Below the pieces are notes generated by a model. That model saw only the letters and a list, made by a program, of their open reading frames with translations, was not told the DNA's origin and did not search any database. This document shows, piece by piece, positions 35,640-52,656 of a stretch of DNA of 64,000 bases. The translations under genes were made by a program, and so were the position numbers. The DNA is from Balneola sp. (GTDB lineage: Bacteria; Bacteroidota; Rhodothermia; Balneolales; Balneolaceae). The stretch covers positions 62,001-126,000 of the forward strand of contig JAEPPZ010000001.1 of assembly GCA_017640785.1 (NCBI GenBank), written 5' to 3'. The first letter of the stretch is position 1, and each line of letters begins with the position of its first letter.

Positions 35640-35729
35640 ATCGTTTATAGAGTCATCCGGTTTATACAAATTGGCAGTCATCCTGTAACGGATGCTAGAT
35701 ATCTTAATTTATCCTTTCCTTATTTAATT

Positions 35730-35745
35730 TTTAGTCATGACTAAA
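35730..35745. promoter_or_regulatory. 16-base perfect palindrome, operator candidate for the di-heme/Rieske/porin operon
   Basis: TTTAGTCATGACTAAA is its own reverse complement and lies 34 bases before the ATG of the di-heme gene. The TTTAG-N6-CTAAA outline resembles sites of DtxR/MntR-type metal-responsive regulators (from memory, not searched). No regulator gene is adjacent. Confidence 0.5.
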
Positions 35746-35779
35746 TATTTTTATATTCACATAAAAATAATCCAATATC

Positions 35780-36982
35780 ATGACTACCCGAAAAATACAA
35801 TCCGCTTGTGCAGTATTGCTTTTGGTTGCCGCTATCTACTCTTGCGATAGTTTGATTCCCGAAGCTCCTGCGGAAAGCGACTTACTTGATGGCCCAACCG
35901 AAGGGCTTTCCACTTCAGAACAATCCAGATTTCTTAAAGGTGATATCGCTTTTAATGATGAAGTGTTTACACCCGAATCAGGTCTTGGTCCCGTTTTTGT
36001 AGCCAATTCTTGTGGAAGTTGTCATGCCGGAGACGGAAAAGGACATCCTTTTACCACATTAACCCGGTTTGGGCAAACACAACCAAACATAGCACCTGAT
36101 GTCAGTATCGGAGGGCCTCAACTCCAAAATAGAGCCATTCCCGGTTTCGAGCCTGAGACTATTCCAAACGGCGTTCCTTCTATGGATTTTACACCGCCGG
36201 CTGTTACTGGTCTAGGTTTTCTTGAAGCGTTAACCGATCCACAAATTCTGGATAATGCCGATCCAAATGATTCAGATGGTGACGGTATTTCCGGAGTTCC
36301 GAATTACATCAATCCTCCATCCTATTTTATTCCAAAACCATTTCATCAACCCGTTGGTGGACAATACATTGGTCGTTTTGGTAAAAAAGCTGCCGCTATT
36401 GATCTACTTCATCAAACAGTAGGTGCATATAATCAGGACATGGGCGTAACTTCTACCTTCAATCCAATTGATCCGCATACAGGATTATCAACGGATCCTG
36501 AAGTTAGTGATCAAATCATCCGCGATGTAGTATTCTATCTTCAAACACTCAAAGCTCCAATCCAAAGAGACGCGGACGATCCCGAAGTCATCAGAGGTAA
36601 AGAAGTTTTTATGAGCATCAATTGCTCTTCCTGTCATGTTCCTTCATTCACTACTCCTCAATCTGATATTGACGCTCTTTCCAATAAAACGATTTTTCCA
36701 TACTCTGATCTGCTACTTCACGATATGGGTCCCGGACTGGATGATGGTGCAACCGAAGGTTCAGCAGAAACTTTTGAATGGAGAACTCCACCACTTTGGG
36801 GATTGGGTTTAGCGCCGGAATCACAAGGTGGAGAATTCTTTCTGATGCATGATGGACGAGCTAAAAGTATTCAGGAAGCTATTGAACTTCATGGTGGAGA
36901 AGCTCAGCAAAGCAGAGATGAGTTTGTTGCGCTAAGTGATGCTGACAAACAAGCACTTCTCAAATTCCTGAGGTCGCTGTAA
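35780..36982 (+). CDS. di-heme oxidoreductase (DUF1111) lipoprotein
   Basis: 400 residues. Lipoprotein signal MTTRKIQSACAVLLLVAAIYSC with lipidated cysteine at 22. Two c-type heme sites: CGSCH (78-82) and CSSCH (282-286). The sequence FNDEVFTPESGLGPVFVANSCGSCHAG and the C-terminal PPLWGLGLAPESQGGEFFLMHDGRAKSIQEAI-type region fit the DUF1111 di-heme family, sometimes called thiol oxidoreductase or di-heme peroxidase-like. An Asp-rich DPNDSDGDGISG loop may bind calcium. It needs cytochrome c maturation (see ccmB). First gene of a three-gene operon with a Rieske lipoprotein and a porin. The redox partner and substrate are unknown. Confidence 0.88.
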   Translation: MTTRKIQSACAVLLLVAAIYSCDSLIPEAPAESDLLDGPTEGLSTSEQSRFLKGDIAFNDEVFTPESGLGPVFVANSCGSCHAGDGKGHPFTTLTRFGQTQPNIAPDVSIGGPQLQNRAIPGFEPETIPNGVPSMDFTPPAVTGLGFLEALTDPQILDNADPNDSDGDGISGVPNYINPPSYFIPKPFHQPVGGQYIGRFGKKAAAIDLLHQTVGAYNQDMGVTSTFNPIDPHTGLSTDPEVSDQIIRDVVFYLQTLKAPIQRDADDPEVIRGKEVFMSINCSSCHVPSFTTPQSDIDALSNKTIFPYSDLLLHDMGPGLDDGATEGSAETFEWRTPPLWGLGLAPESQGGEFFLMHDGRAKSIQEAIELHGGEAQQSRDEFVALSDADKQALLKFLRSL

Positions 36983-37416
36983 TGAACAGAGAAGAATTTA
37001 TAAAAGTATGCGGATTAAGTTGCGCAGGATTGATCTCCACTTCACTGTTTCTGCAGGGATGTGCAGGCACAAAATATCTGAATGCAGATATCAATGGTAA
37101 TTTTATGGAGATCCCATTGAGCGCCTTCTCAACAGAAGATGGCACCGCATCCAGAGACTATCTCGTCGTTGAAAACAGTAAGCTCAGTTATCCCATTGCT
37201 GTTTACCGTCATGATGCAGAAACCTACACTGCCCTTTTGATGAGATGTACACATCAGGGTACGGAACTCAGAGTTTTTGGAGATCGTCTGGAATGTCCGG
37301 CTCACGGTAGTGAATTCACAAATAACGGTTCAGTTCAAAGTGGTCCCGCAGATGAGGAACTCAGAACTTTTCCTGTCCTTATTGAATCAGAAATTTTAAA
37401 GATCGATCTACGATGA
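36982..37416 (+). CDS. Rieske [2Fe-2S] lipoprotein
   Basis: 144 residues. The N-terminus MNREEFIKVCGLSCAGLISTSLFLQGC looks like a lipoprotein signal with Cys27 lipidated. The Rieske cluster ligands are complete: CTH (C89, H91) and CPAH (C105, H108). The spacing is that of arsenite-oxidase-small-subunit or QcrA-type soluble Rieske domains. It overlaps the di-heme gene by one base (TAATG) and the porin by four, so the three proteins are made together. Probable electron-transfer partner of the di-heme protein (inference). Confidence 0.9.
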   Translation: MNREEFIKVCGLSCAGLISTSLFLQGCAGTKYLNADINGNFMEIPLSAFSTEDGTASRDYLVVENSKLSYPIAVYRHDAETYTALLMRCTHQGTELRVFGDRLECPAHGSEFTNNGSVQSGPADEELRTFPVLIESEILKIDLR

Positions 37417-38636
37417 AAAAGTTAATTATCACATTATTTATTGGACTACTGGCACAGCAATTAATCGCTCAAGTTGATCAGTCTCTCTTGAAAGATGATC
37501 GATCAGATTCGCTGGAAAATGGAATGAACATGGATGCATTGAGCAATCGTGTTTATGCTACGTCAAGCTCTCCGGTTTCGATCGGTGGTTATCTGGAAGC
37601 AGATTACAAATACATCGGCGAAGACGGACTTACAGACGGACATACATTCCGGATTCCCAGAGTAACGCTATTTATAACCTCTTCTATCAGTTCCAGAATT
37701 AAATTTATGAGTGAGTTTGAGTTTGAAGAAGGTGGTGAAGAGATCGCCATTGAATTTGCTGCCATGGATGTAAACTTTCATCCTCTGCTGAACTTAAGAG
37801 GCGGAGTTGTTGTGAATCCGATTGGAGCATTTAATCAAAATCATGACGGACCAAAATGGGAATTTGTAGATCGACCTATTGCAATGACACAAATGCTACC
37901 TGCAACATGGAGCAACGTAGGTTTTGGGCTTTATGGAAAAATGTACCAACAGGATTGGGCTTTTGGTTATGAAGCCTATCTAACCAACGGCTTTGATAAT
38001 TCTATAACCACTAATACTGAAAACAGAACTTTTTTACCGGCATCAAAAAATAATAAGGAGCGTTTTGAAGAATCCAGTAATGGAGAACCTTTGTTTACCG
38101 GAAAGATTGCAGTACGCAATCAAAATATCGGTGAGTTGGGATTGTCATATATGGGCGGGATTTATAACACTCATGAAGATGACGGATTGATACTTGATGA
38201 GCCAAGAAGACTGGATGTTTTTGCTGTAGATTTTAACACAGAATTACCGTTTTCAGATACTTACATAATTGGCGAGTGGGCATGGGTTTTTGTGGATGTT
38301 CCAAATACATTCACTCAGCAATACGGAGAAAAACAAAGCGGTGGCTTTCTGGATATTGTTCAGCCTGTAATTGATAAATCCATGTTTGGTTTTGATGATG
38401 CCGTTTTCAATGTAGCTCTTAGACTGGAATCAGTTGACTGGAATGTTGGCACTTTTAACGAAACCGGCGGAAATATCGGAGATGAGATTTGGGCTGTAGT
38501 TCCGGGAATCAGCTTCCGTCCAACTTATCAAACCGTATTCAGACTAAACTATCGCTATCAGGAGCAAACAGATATTCTTGGAAATCCTCCTGCAAAAACC
38601 AGCGGTATTGAAATAGGTTTTGCGACTTATTTTTAG
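37413..38636 (+). CDS. porin-like outer-membrane beta-barrel protein
   Basis: 407 residues with signal peptide MKKLIITLFIGLLAQQLIAQ. The rest is amphipathic beta-strand sequence starting with VSIGGYLEADYKY and ending with the aromatic strand SGIEIGFATYF, typical of outer-membrane barrels (phosphate-selective-porin-like). Acidic loops are frequent. It overlaps the Rieske gene stop by four bases (ATGA). In this operon it may provide substrate access for, or a surface platform to, the di-heme/Rieske pair; this is inference. Confidence 0.82.
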   Translation: MKKLIITLFIGLLAQQLIAQVDQSLLKDDRSDSLENGMNMDALSNRVYATSSSPVSIGGYLEADYKYIGEDGLTDGHTFRIPRVTLFITSSISSRIKFMSEFEFEEGGEEIAIEFAAMDVNFHPLLNLRGGVVVNPIGAFNQNHDGPKWEFVDRPIAMTQMLPATWSNVGFGLYGKMYQQDWAFGYEAYLTNGFDNSITTNTENRTFLPASKNNKERFEESSNGEPLFTGKIAVRNQNIGELGLSYMGGIYNTHEDDGLILDEPRRLDVFAVDFNTELPFSDTYIIGEWAWVFVDVPNTFTQQYGEKQSGGFLDIVQPVIDKSMFGFDDAVFNVALRLESVDWNVGTFNETGGNIGDEIWAVVPGISFRPTYQTVFRLNYRYQEQTDILGNPPAKTSGIEIGFATYF

Positions 38637-50583: not shown

Positions 50584-52656
50584 TCATTTTAACAGGAGTA
50601 ATTTTTTAGTCAAAACTAAATCTGAACCGGATAACTGATAATAGTATACACCACTAGCAAAATTAGCAGCGTTCCAAACTACTGAATGAGTTCCTGCCGG
50701 TTTTCTAGAATTCACCAATACCGCCACTTGTTGTCCAATTGAATTAAAAATAGTGAGTTTAATTTCTTTCGGGTCAGAAAGAGTATATGAAATTGTAGTA
50801 GTTGGATTAAAAGGATTGGGATAGTTTTGATTAAGAATAGCTTCTTTAGGTAAAGAAGTTTCATCTTCAATTCCTACACTTGTTATAACATACACCGGAT
50901 CGTATGTTTGAGTATAGTATCTACTACTTTTGATGACAGAACCGATTGGAGTATTCCCTGTGCTATCATTATTTACTGATTTATCTACAGTTACTATATA
51001 GTAAAAATACTTTGTTCCCGGTTCCGGTGCTTCTGAAAAGAATTTATCAGGATTGATATTTCTATTATCAACATTATCATTGATCTGTCTTTCATCCGGG
51101 TCTGCTTTATACAACAGTGTATACTCGTTATCATATTCTCCCTGGGTACGATAAATTTCAAATCCGTTTATCTCGCTTTCATCCAGATTGTATTCCCATT
51201 TCAAATCAACACCAACAGAAGCCATATCTACATTAAAATTTGACACAGGCTGAGGTCCTTTATAAATACTATAATCTGAACTAAAATTACTGATTGCTCT
51301 ATCAAATGTTTGAAAAAGAGAATCTCTTCCCTGAAACACTACTTTGTTCTTAGCTTCTGCGCTAATTTCTCCATTTTTGAATTTCTTACCGGTTTCAAAT
51401 GCTTCTTTTTTAGATATACCTGATGAAGCTTCCGCAATTACTATTTTAATACTATCACCCGGAGCTAGATTATAAGGACCATACCCATTTGTATATGAAA
51501 AACCACCTAAATTATTCCCTAATGCAGGATCACCAGTAGGATTGGTAAAGCCTTCATACCCGGTTGGCTCAACTCTGTATGCATGCCTTGGGTTTGTTCT
51601 CCCTTGTAACATTAAATCATACTCTGCCGTCATTCTAACTTCATTATAAGCACTATTATTTCCGAGTAATATATCATCCGAATGAATCTCATTCATTGTG
51701 AACGGCTGATTCGGATCATCTTCAGAATTATTAGCAGATACGTCAGCATGCAAAGTTACCGTACCTCCAAAATGGTACGCTGCTAATCTTCCCGTAGTAT
51801 CATCTTCCGATATGTATCCTCCATTAGTATTGGGCTCTATAATAGGCGCTCCCAGATTATCATATTCAAAGAAATGAGCGTATTTTCCATGCCATGTATA
51901 ATGCGCTCTGAATTTATTTTCTTCTGAAGGAAACTGACCGTCGCCTCTTCTATCGATCATGGTATTTTGCCCCCACCCCGTAGCATTACCTATTGTATAC
52001 CTTGATTCCTTTACATGCGCCAAATCACTGATAAAAAATGGTATAAACCCTTCTATTTCTTGATCAGGCAACTCAATAAAATCATCACCATCGATATTAC
52101 CGGTATTAGTAAATACATACTCAATAATATGATAGTTATCATGATACTCTTGACTGAATTGCTTTATGGTTCTTTTTACCGTTACACCAATCAGAGTATT
52201 AGTAACAGTAACAATCTCCCTGTCCGCTTTTAAATTCGAATCTATTTCATCGATTTCAACAGTATTCTTTTGTGAAATTCTTCCATCAACACTCACGTAA
52301 GGTCTTTCAAACCGACTTCTGGTTTTAATACTGACAGGAAAAAACTCTCCCGCTCCATCAACTCTGGGTCCCACATGGACTACTCTTTTTTCATAAAGAA
52401 CACCAGAACTGTCTGTATAATTTTCTACCCCTAGCCATAACCCTTTAAAAACTTGTGCATCCTGATTTTCATAAATTGCCGGCCACTGCCAACCTCCTTG
52501 ATGTTCGCTTTTAAATCCCTGTTCAACTTCTGAACCGATATTCGAATAAAAGTTGTGAAATGATCCAACATCCAGCCATTTATATGTAACTTGAGCGTTT
52601 GAATTAAAAGGAACTTGAACAAAAAATAAGAATGTTAAAAAACTCAGGAATTTCAT
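50584..52656 (-). CDS. secreted protein with type IX secretion C-terminal sorting domain
   Basis: 690 residues. Signal peptide MKFLSFLTFLFFVQVPFNSNAQ. The large middle (about 30-470) is beta-rich and not assigned to a family. Residues about 475-590 resemble a fibronectin type III-like domain (VDLKWEYNLDESEINGFEIYR ... GTKYFYYIVTV). The last 90 residues are a type A sorting domain: LNQNYPNPFNPTTTISYTL, LTIFNSIGQQVAVLVN, GTHSVVWNA, ASGVYYYQL, KKLLLLK. It should be exported by Sec and then carried across the outer membrane by the T9SS and anchored or released. Function unknown. Confidence 0.9.
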   Translation of the reverse strand: MKFLSFLTFLFFVQVPFNSNAQVTYKWLDVGSFHNFYSNIGSEVEQGFKSEHQGGWQWPAIYENQDAQVFKGLWLGVENYTDSSGVLYEKRVVHVGPRVDGAGEFFPVSIKTRSRFERPYVSVDGRISQKNTVEIDEIDSNLKADREIVTVTNTLIGVTVKRTIKQFSQEYHDNYHIIEYVFTNTGNIDGDDFIELPDQEIEGFIPFFISDLAHVKESRYTIGNATGWGQNTMIDRRGDGQFPSEENKFRAHYTWHGKYAHFFEYDNLGAPIIEPNTNGGYISEDDTTGRLAAYHFGGTVTLHADVSANNSEDDPNQPFTMNEIHSDDILLGNNSAYNEVRMTAEYDLMLQGRTNPRHAYRVEPTGYEGFTNPTGDPALGNNLGGFSYTNGYGPYNLAPGDSIKIVIAEASSGISKKEAFETGKKFKNGEISAEAKNKVVFQGRDSLFQTFDRAISNFSSDYSIYKGPQPVSNFNVDMASVGVDLKWEYNLDESEINGFEIYRTQGEYDNEYTLLYKADPDERQINDNVDNRNINPDKFFSEAPEPGTKYFYYIVTVDKSVNNDSTGNTPIGSVIKSSRYYTQTYDPVYVITSVGIEDETSLPKEAILNQNYPNPFNPTTTISYTLSDPKEIKLTIFNSIGQQVAVLVNSRKPAGTHSVVWNAANFASGVYYYQLSGSDLVLTKKLLLLK

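Follow-up and report, generated by a model that had tools for sequence, protein, structure and literature searches.

In porin-cytochrome conduits such as MtrAB, MtoAB, and PioAB, a c-type haem protein is encoded with an outer-membrane barrel, and MnoP of Bradyrhizobium is an outer-membrane manganese porin. Nearer to the locus considered here are loci that combine a DUF1111-type protein with an imelysin, as in Pseudomonas aeruginosa (PA4370-4373, PMC3143127) and Bacteroides thetaiotaomicron (BT2473-2482, PMC10434189). Such loci are raised by iron shortage or placed under Fur, and the porin/thiol oxidoreductase/M75 locus of Bacteroides rises 63- to 324-fold upon iron depletion. We analyzed a three-gene operon (the trio) in a 64,000-nucleotide stretch of Balneola sp. 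DNA (contig JAEPPZ010000001.1, positions 62,001 to 126,000; hereafter the window), which codes for a di-haem lipoprotein (DHOR), a Rieske lipoprotein, and a porin. These genes are conserved together as a unit, and the box family located in front of them is shared with genes for DtxR-family proteins, ZIP transporters, and TonB receptors. Regulation by metal and a role in metal acquisition are well supported by these sequence comparisons, and we lean toward an operon that would be repressed by a DtxR/MntR-family protein when metal is plentiful, and whose redox pair would act on the metal before its import. The locus has the following features, given in window coordinates.

35730..35745, no strand: perfect 16-base-pair (bp) palindrome TTTAGTCATGACTAAA, which probably serves as the operator for a repressor of the DtxR/MntR family, based on its conservation and a shared box family
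35746..35769, no strand: second inverted repeat with 9-bp arms TATTTTTAT / ATAAAAATA and a 6-base spacer, present in the window and in four other Balneola loci
35780..36982, + strand: DHOR/DUF1111 di-haem c-type lipoprotein, 400 amino acids (PF06537, E = 6e-70; two CXXCH motifs and lipoprotein Cys22)
36982..37416, + strand: Rieske [2Fe-2S] lipoprotein, 144 amino acids (PF00355, E = 1.5e-12; CxH...CxxHGS ligands, Cys27)
37413..38636, + strand: outer-membrane porin with a predicted 16-strand barrel, 407 amino acids (AlphaFold model, with OprP/OprO as best matches)

The genes overlap by 1 base (TAATG) and then by 4 bases (ATGA). An earlier note made from the sequence had described overlapping genes for a DUF1111 lipoprotein, a Rieske lipoprotein, and a barrel, and this description is borne out by Pfam for the first two and by the 16-strand model for the third. 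Like the DUF1111-imelysin loci, the trio includes a DUF1111-type protein (BT2478, the Bacteroides thiol oxidoreductase, is presumably a DUF1111 protein) and, as in Bacteroides, a porin. It differs by including a Rieske lipoprotein and by having no imelysin (M75) that Pfam detects among its three genes; imelysin was not searched genome-wide. In addition, the box and neighboring genes of the trio indicate a DtxR-family regulator rather than Fur. By analogy, the trio might work most like these DUF1111 iron loci, with the Rieske protein replacing imelysin.

The Rieske protein shares its cluster motif with the Rieske subunits of bc1 and b6f complexes, and the top matches of its profile are b6f and bc1 chains. 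Unlike those subunits, it is a lipoprotein whose gene lies between those for the di-haem protein and the porin, in an operon that carries no gene for cytochrome b or cytochrome c1/f. As the earlier note had proposed, no bc1 or oxygenase partner was found by Pfam in the operon or among the four flanking genes scanned. There is likewise no cytochrome b gene among these seven genes and no oxygenase catalytic domain or subunit in the operon, and the 144-amino-acid protein consists of a Rieske domain only. Genome-wide, there are two Rieske-family matches, and thus the search gave no distinct Rieske gene for a bc1/b6f complex, although cytochrome b itself was not searched genome-wide. The second match (G000:C1:168073-168276) lies on a single open frame of 588 amino acids, with no recognized bc complex beside it.

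The trio and the Mtr, Mto, and Pio conduits both join a haem protein to a barrel, and share the idea that metals undergo redox reactions at the outer membrane. However, the conduits hold about ten haems within the barrel, whereas DHOR contains only two CXXCH motifs, and the trio barrel is porin-like with 16 strands. MnoP can be likened to the trio by role, in that a porin under metal control that admits a divalent metal would act alike, but it has no redox partners. By the features compared, the trio does not qualify as a bc complex or an oxygenase, and it is neither an imelysin locus nor a conduit of the multihaem kind. Neither the trio nor the pairing of DUF1111 with Rieske proteins was found described in the open-access PubMed Central (PMC) literature, with bioRxiv not covered, which agrees with the earlier note in knowing of no described system of this composition. 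The available part of PMC5609570 mentions neither a Rieske protein nor a porin. In Bizionia, a Rieske protein and a cytochrome c with neighboring locus tags are lowered in an iron-homeostasis-regulator mutant grown in marine broth. The report attributes the two transcripts to complex III and the carrier that serves it (PMC9478572), but they may belong to a trio module.

DHOR, Rieske, and porin genes are found in that order at 29 of the 32 loci read, which range from Balneola to distant Bacteroidota. These loci are the surroundings of strong porin or Rieske matches, scanned with profiles of all three proteins. The dedicated three-gene module suggested earlier from the window is thus retained in other genomes, which was the check proposed for it. 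When 394 Bacteroidota genomes were searched for the porin, 55 had matches at E <= 1e-10, including 30 at E <= 1e-40, and the full trio is present in 27 of these 30. The ordered trio is missing at L132, where a shortened porin lies behind transposase-like open reading frames (ORFs), and at L135 and L140, where the porin sits at the start of a contig. Of the 25 genomes with only weaker porin matches, one locus was read (L143), and no DHOR or Rieske gene was found there or at secondary weak porin matches in two genomes with strong ones (L144 and L145).

The porin is also present in five plasmid records. Three of these loci were opened (Haliscomenobacter, Fibrella, and Hymenobacter), and all have DHOR and Rieske regions upstream of the porin, although the Rieske region of the Fibrella plasmid and DHOR of the Hymenobacter plasmid are each annotated as two ORFs. 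The closest named records for the Rieske protein, 95-99% identical, come from Balneola and Balneolaceae assemblies, including Balneola sp. EhC07. The Rieske and porin genes are missing from three (G003, G005, and G006) of the seven other Balneola genomes, and therefore the module is accessory.

The surroundings of the trio vary. Within Balneola, the stretch upstream of the palindrome (window positions 35640-35730, compared with L026, L027, and L030) is variable, and extra genes lie upstream of the operon in two genomes (about 5.7 kilobases, kb) and in another (1.6 kb), with none in the window or in G001. The G001 genome carries a second, diverged copy of the trio (L029; the other copy is L028) inside a heavy-metal island. 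The genes flanking this diverged copy are nearly identical in G010 (L031) and partly so in G025 (L033), which belong to other genera, suggesting that the copy and its island are probably mobile. At L033 the porin is in two pieces with an internal stop, as expected of a decayed gene or an assembly error.

The palindrome reported in the earlier note is exact at 35730-35745, and lies 34 bp upstream of the DHOR start codon. The trio loci of four other Balneola genomes carry it in the identical form (five loci compared, with that of the window). The second inverted repeat adjoining it was not seen in the more distant loci compared. Among relatives the frame TTAG-N6-CTAA is kept while the middle varies (TTTAGTCAAGGCTAAT, TTTAGCCATGACTAAT, TTTAGATTAATCTAAA, and GTTAGATCAGTCTAAC). 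The exact frame occurs within 100 bp of the trio start at 14 of 21 distinct loci, whereas 500 dinucleotide shuffles per locus predict 0.058, and at least seven of its eight positions are matched at 17 of 21, versus 1.7 expected. These figures apply to a frame picked after the window palindrome and some conserved sites had been seen. The set of 21 drops near-copies of the window (L026, L027, L028, and L030) and of L029 (L031), and four loci with DHOR inside a Feo operon were counted apart; L043, which nearly duplicates L042, had not been part of it. Outside the 14, exact boxes precede other in-frame starts by 68 bp (L041) and 46 bp (L130), and another overlaps a possible start (L139). The plasmid loci were examined afterwards and provide a small independent test, in which two of three carry the exact box.

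The same box occurs in front of other genes relevant to metals. The source genome has four exact matches to TTTAGWYNNRWCTAAA, located at the trio, a ZIP transporter gene, a CusA-like RND gene, and inside an ORF (window position 50605). The ZIP gene (L048:5041-5865, contig C2) has the box 33 bp upstream, and ZIP orthologues have an exact box upstream in 19 of 23 genomes. All of these orthologues belong to a single order and do not count as independent cases; two of 25 genomes with a ZIP match held only a distant paralogue and were left out. The ZIP gene therefore probably belongs to the same regulon as the trio and is a candidate importer.

TonB-receptor genes are preceded by the box in four genomes in total, among them two Balneola genomes without the trio, where it lies 53 and 17 bp upstream (13 loci looked at). 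In 10 distant genomes that carry the trio, TTTAGAYNNRTCTAAA occurs at 15 places, versus four for the reversed control. By Pfam identities, three of these precede DtxR-family genes and two precede TonB-receptor genes, and three lie at the trio, as expected for genomes chosen for carrying it. Among the remaining places, 5 of the 15 are inside ORFs and 2 of the 15 have no start within 300 bp. The three DtxR genes, confirmed by Pfam, are in three genomes and lie 16, 17, and 116 bp downstream of the box, and a conserved palindromic box that the operon shares with such genes is a feature of a DtxR/MntR regulon. The possible metal regulation raised in the earlier note gains support from these boxes, and its suggestion that palindrome copies be sought near metal genes yielded several members of the box family before ZIP, DtxR-family, TonB-receptor, and CusA-like RND genes.

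The neighborhood of the trio includes a DtxR-family gene at 11 of 26 loci and FeoB at 5 of 26, where Balneola copies count as one, L029 and L031 count as two, and L140 (a DtxR gene, with only the porin of the trio on its contig) is excluded. These labels, and those for CzcA and MerT below, were assigned by blastp (E <= 1e-6) against seeds taken from the same loci, and were checked in part by Pfam. By chance, a DtxR-family gene would fall within 10 kb of the trio at fewer than 1% of loci, a figure obtained by arithmetic from one gene per 3.4 megabases, with no null run. Four loci (L136, L137, L141, and L142) carry on one strand the genes for DtxR, a protein with DtxR-dimerisation and FeoA domains, the N-terminal and C-terminal parts of FeoB, DHOR, Rieske, and porin. 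This run was checked by Pfam for L136, and in part for L137 and L141. The DtxR gene that opens it is preceded by the box in L141 (14 bp) and L142 (20 bp). In the L122 locus, FeoA and FeoB are accompanied by a DtxR gene in divergent orientation, by the trio, and by a ZnuA-type gene.

The second gene of the run (L136:3193-4212, with the same slot filled in L137 and L141) codes for two stretches of FeoA domain together with the dimerisation domain of DtxR, without a match to a DNA-binding domain. Its N terminus resembles a membrane anchor, and the protein is possibly an iron-sensing Feo partner.

The source genome has one DtxR-family gene above the Pfam cut-off, on another contig (contig 12). Its best FeoB_N match reaches 66 bits, versus 171 for the FeoB of L122 and 206 for that of L136, and so this genome is taken to be without FeoB. 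Beyond what the earlier note had proposed, the repressor of the trio most likely belongs to the DtxR/MntR family, as judged from boxes and neighbors, and the trio is linked to import by FeoB and ZIP.

Several observations weigh against metal acquisition under such a repressor. TTTAGWYNNRWCTAAA with at most one mismatch occurs at 33 places in the source genome versus 40 for the control, and TTTAGNYNNRNCTAAA occurs at 45 places in eight Balneola genomes versus 31. The box is missing from plasmid locus L186 (upstream of the trio), from 14 kb around the DtxR gene of the source genome, before DtxR in L136 and L139, and before FeoA of L122; before DtxR in L137 and L140 it matches at only seven of eight positions. 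Moreover, iron-rich proteins are a costly response to iron shortage. TTTAGTCATGACTAAA itself has one exact copy in the genome, and with at most two mismatches three places versus six for the reversed control. We rejected the idea that the palindrome is a frequent regulon site by count alone, given its single exact copy and the little or no excess over controls. The case for the box as a site is one of position and conservation among loci, not of copy number.

The regulators raise a further difficulty. At the sites that correspond to Glu99, Glu102, and His103 of Bacillus subtilis MntR, the regulator of the source genome and 12 aligned trio-side regulators carry Glu, Glu, and His rather than the Cys of DtxR, and sensing of manganese is therefore possible. 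Thus, the trio could instead serve manganese, with the porin as a manganese channel, the redox pair handling Mn(III/IV), and a true MntR as repressor. The ZnuA-type ABC genes that adjoin the trio in L122 also favor manganese, as does the box before Nramp in G136. This is the sole exception among 18 Nramp loci read, however, and the lack of an exact box before Balneola Nramp genes counts against both readings. A DtxR-family protein with FeoA domains, the MntR of Porphyromonas gingivalis, binds manganese and iron as well as the promoter of a manganese-transporting FeoB (PMC4805248). However, TonB-receptor genes carry the box in four genomes and the parallels described above are iron-responsive. 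We consider a manganese module rather unlikely, and iron is more likely to be the metal of the trio because of the linkage to FeoB, the boxed TonB-receptor genes, and these published parallels.

Heavy-metal efflux genes (CzcA- or MerT-type) are found near 10 of 26 trios, which leaves room for a resistance role in which the trio would detoxify a toxic metal by redox chemistry or export it. The trio of the Haliscomenobacter plasmid adjoins CusA/CzcA and a heavy-metal P-type ATPase gene, and the CusA-like RND gene of the source genome (L049, C10:573237) has the box TTTAGATCTGTCTAAA 64 bp upstream. An identical 16-mer is also present in G002, G004, and G007. However, no such gene was found among the window flanking genes scanned, ZIP and FeoB are importers, and DtxR-family repressors usually silence genes at high metal, which speaks against a defense against metal excess. 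We regard resistance as improbable.

The proteins themselves suggest how an acquisition operon might function. In DHOR, lipoprotein Cys22 and both CXXCH motifs are invariant among nine aligned sequences. Two c-type haem motifs are a feature of di-haem peroxidases of the CCP/MauG type, and the Pfam name of the family is that of a putative peroxidase. Furthermore, DUF1111 proteins are described as di-haem peroxidases in PMC3143127. DHOR might accordingly be a periplasmic di-haem peroxidase fed by the Rieske protein and made during metal shortage, with the porin as a general channel. However, the CCP_MauG model matches DHOR weakly (E = 0.24), and peroxide defense would leave unexplained both the retention of the porin (29 of 32 loci) and the link to FeoB, which makes it slightly more improbable than resistance. 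No solved structure matched the single DHOR sequence at E <= 0.01, and its profile matched only short cytochrome c stretches. A structure model with a predicted local distance difference test score (pLDDT) of 38 was not used.

In the Rieske protein, the CxH and CxxH ligands, the following Gly-Ser, and lipobox Cys27 are invariant in 11 sequences. The N terminus resembles a twin-arginine translocation (Tat) signal in some members, with L136 closest to the canonical form. The porin of the window has no Pfam match on its own, but 9 of 18 porin members match PF07642 (BBP2/OmpL-like porins) at E up to 0.1, with 6e-5 as the best. Its AlphaFold model, built from 18 sequences, has 16 strands, a mean pLDDT of 79, and a predicted template modeling score of 0.78. 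The best structural matches are OprP (Z 26.0) and OprO (Z 25.9), over 317 residues with 12% and 10% identity. Conserved glutamates were considered as a sign of cation selectivity and dropped because conserved Arg and Lys residues are also present.

For metal acquisition, we infer the redox direction, the identity of the metal, and the route of the substrate as follows. When iron (or manganese) is scarce, the predicted repressor would leave the box and the trio would be induced. The porin, through which the earlier note had the substrate enter, might then pass the ion or a small chelate across the outer membrane, and the Rieske and DHOR lipoproteins on the periplasmic side could connect the metal to the respiratory chain as an electron relay. 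Most likely, Fe(III) (or oxidized manganese) would be reduced to the divalent ion, which an inner-membrane importer would take up, namely FeoB in other genomes and probably ZIP in the source genome.

To our knowledge, little is known about the passage of divalent metals and weak chelates through the Bacteroidota outer membrane when no TonB receptor is involved. We tentatively propose, as a possibility less likely than metal acquisition in general, that the trio represents a reductive, TonB-independent route for iron or manganese across the outer membrane throughout this phylum, composed of a selective porin, a relay of Rieske protein and DHOR, FeoB or ZIP as importer, and a DtxR-family repressor. 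If true, Rieske proteins would have a new role outside of bc complexes, arsenite oxidase, and oxygenases. The locus now offers a model that can be tested on a defined operon, for which an operator and a family of regulators are probable.

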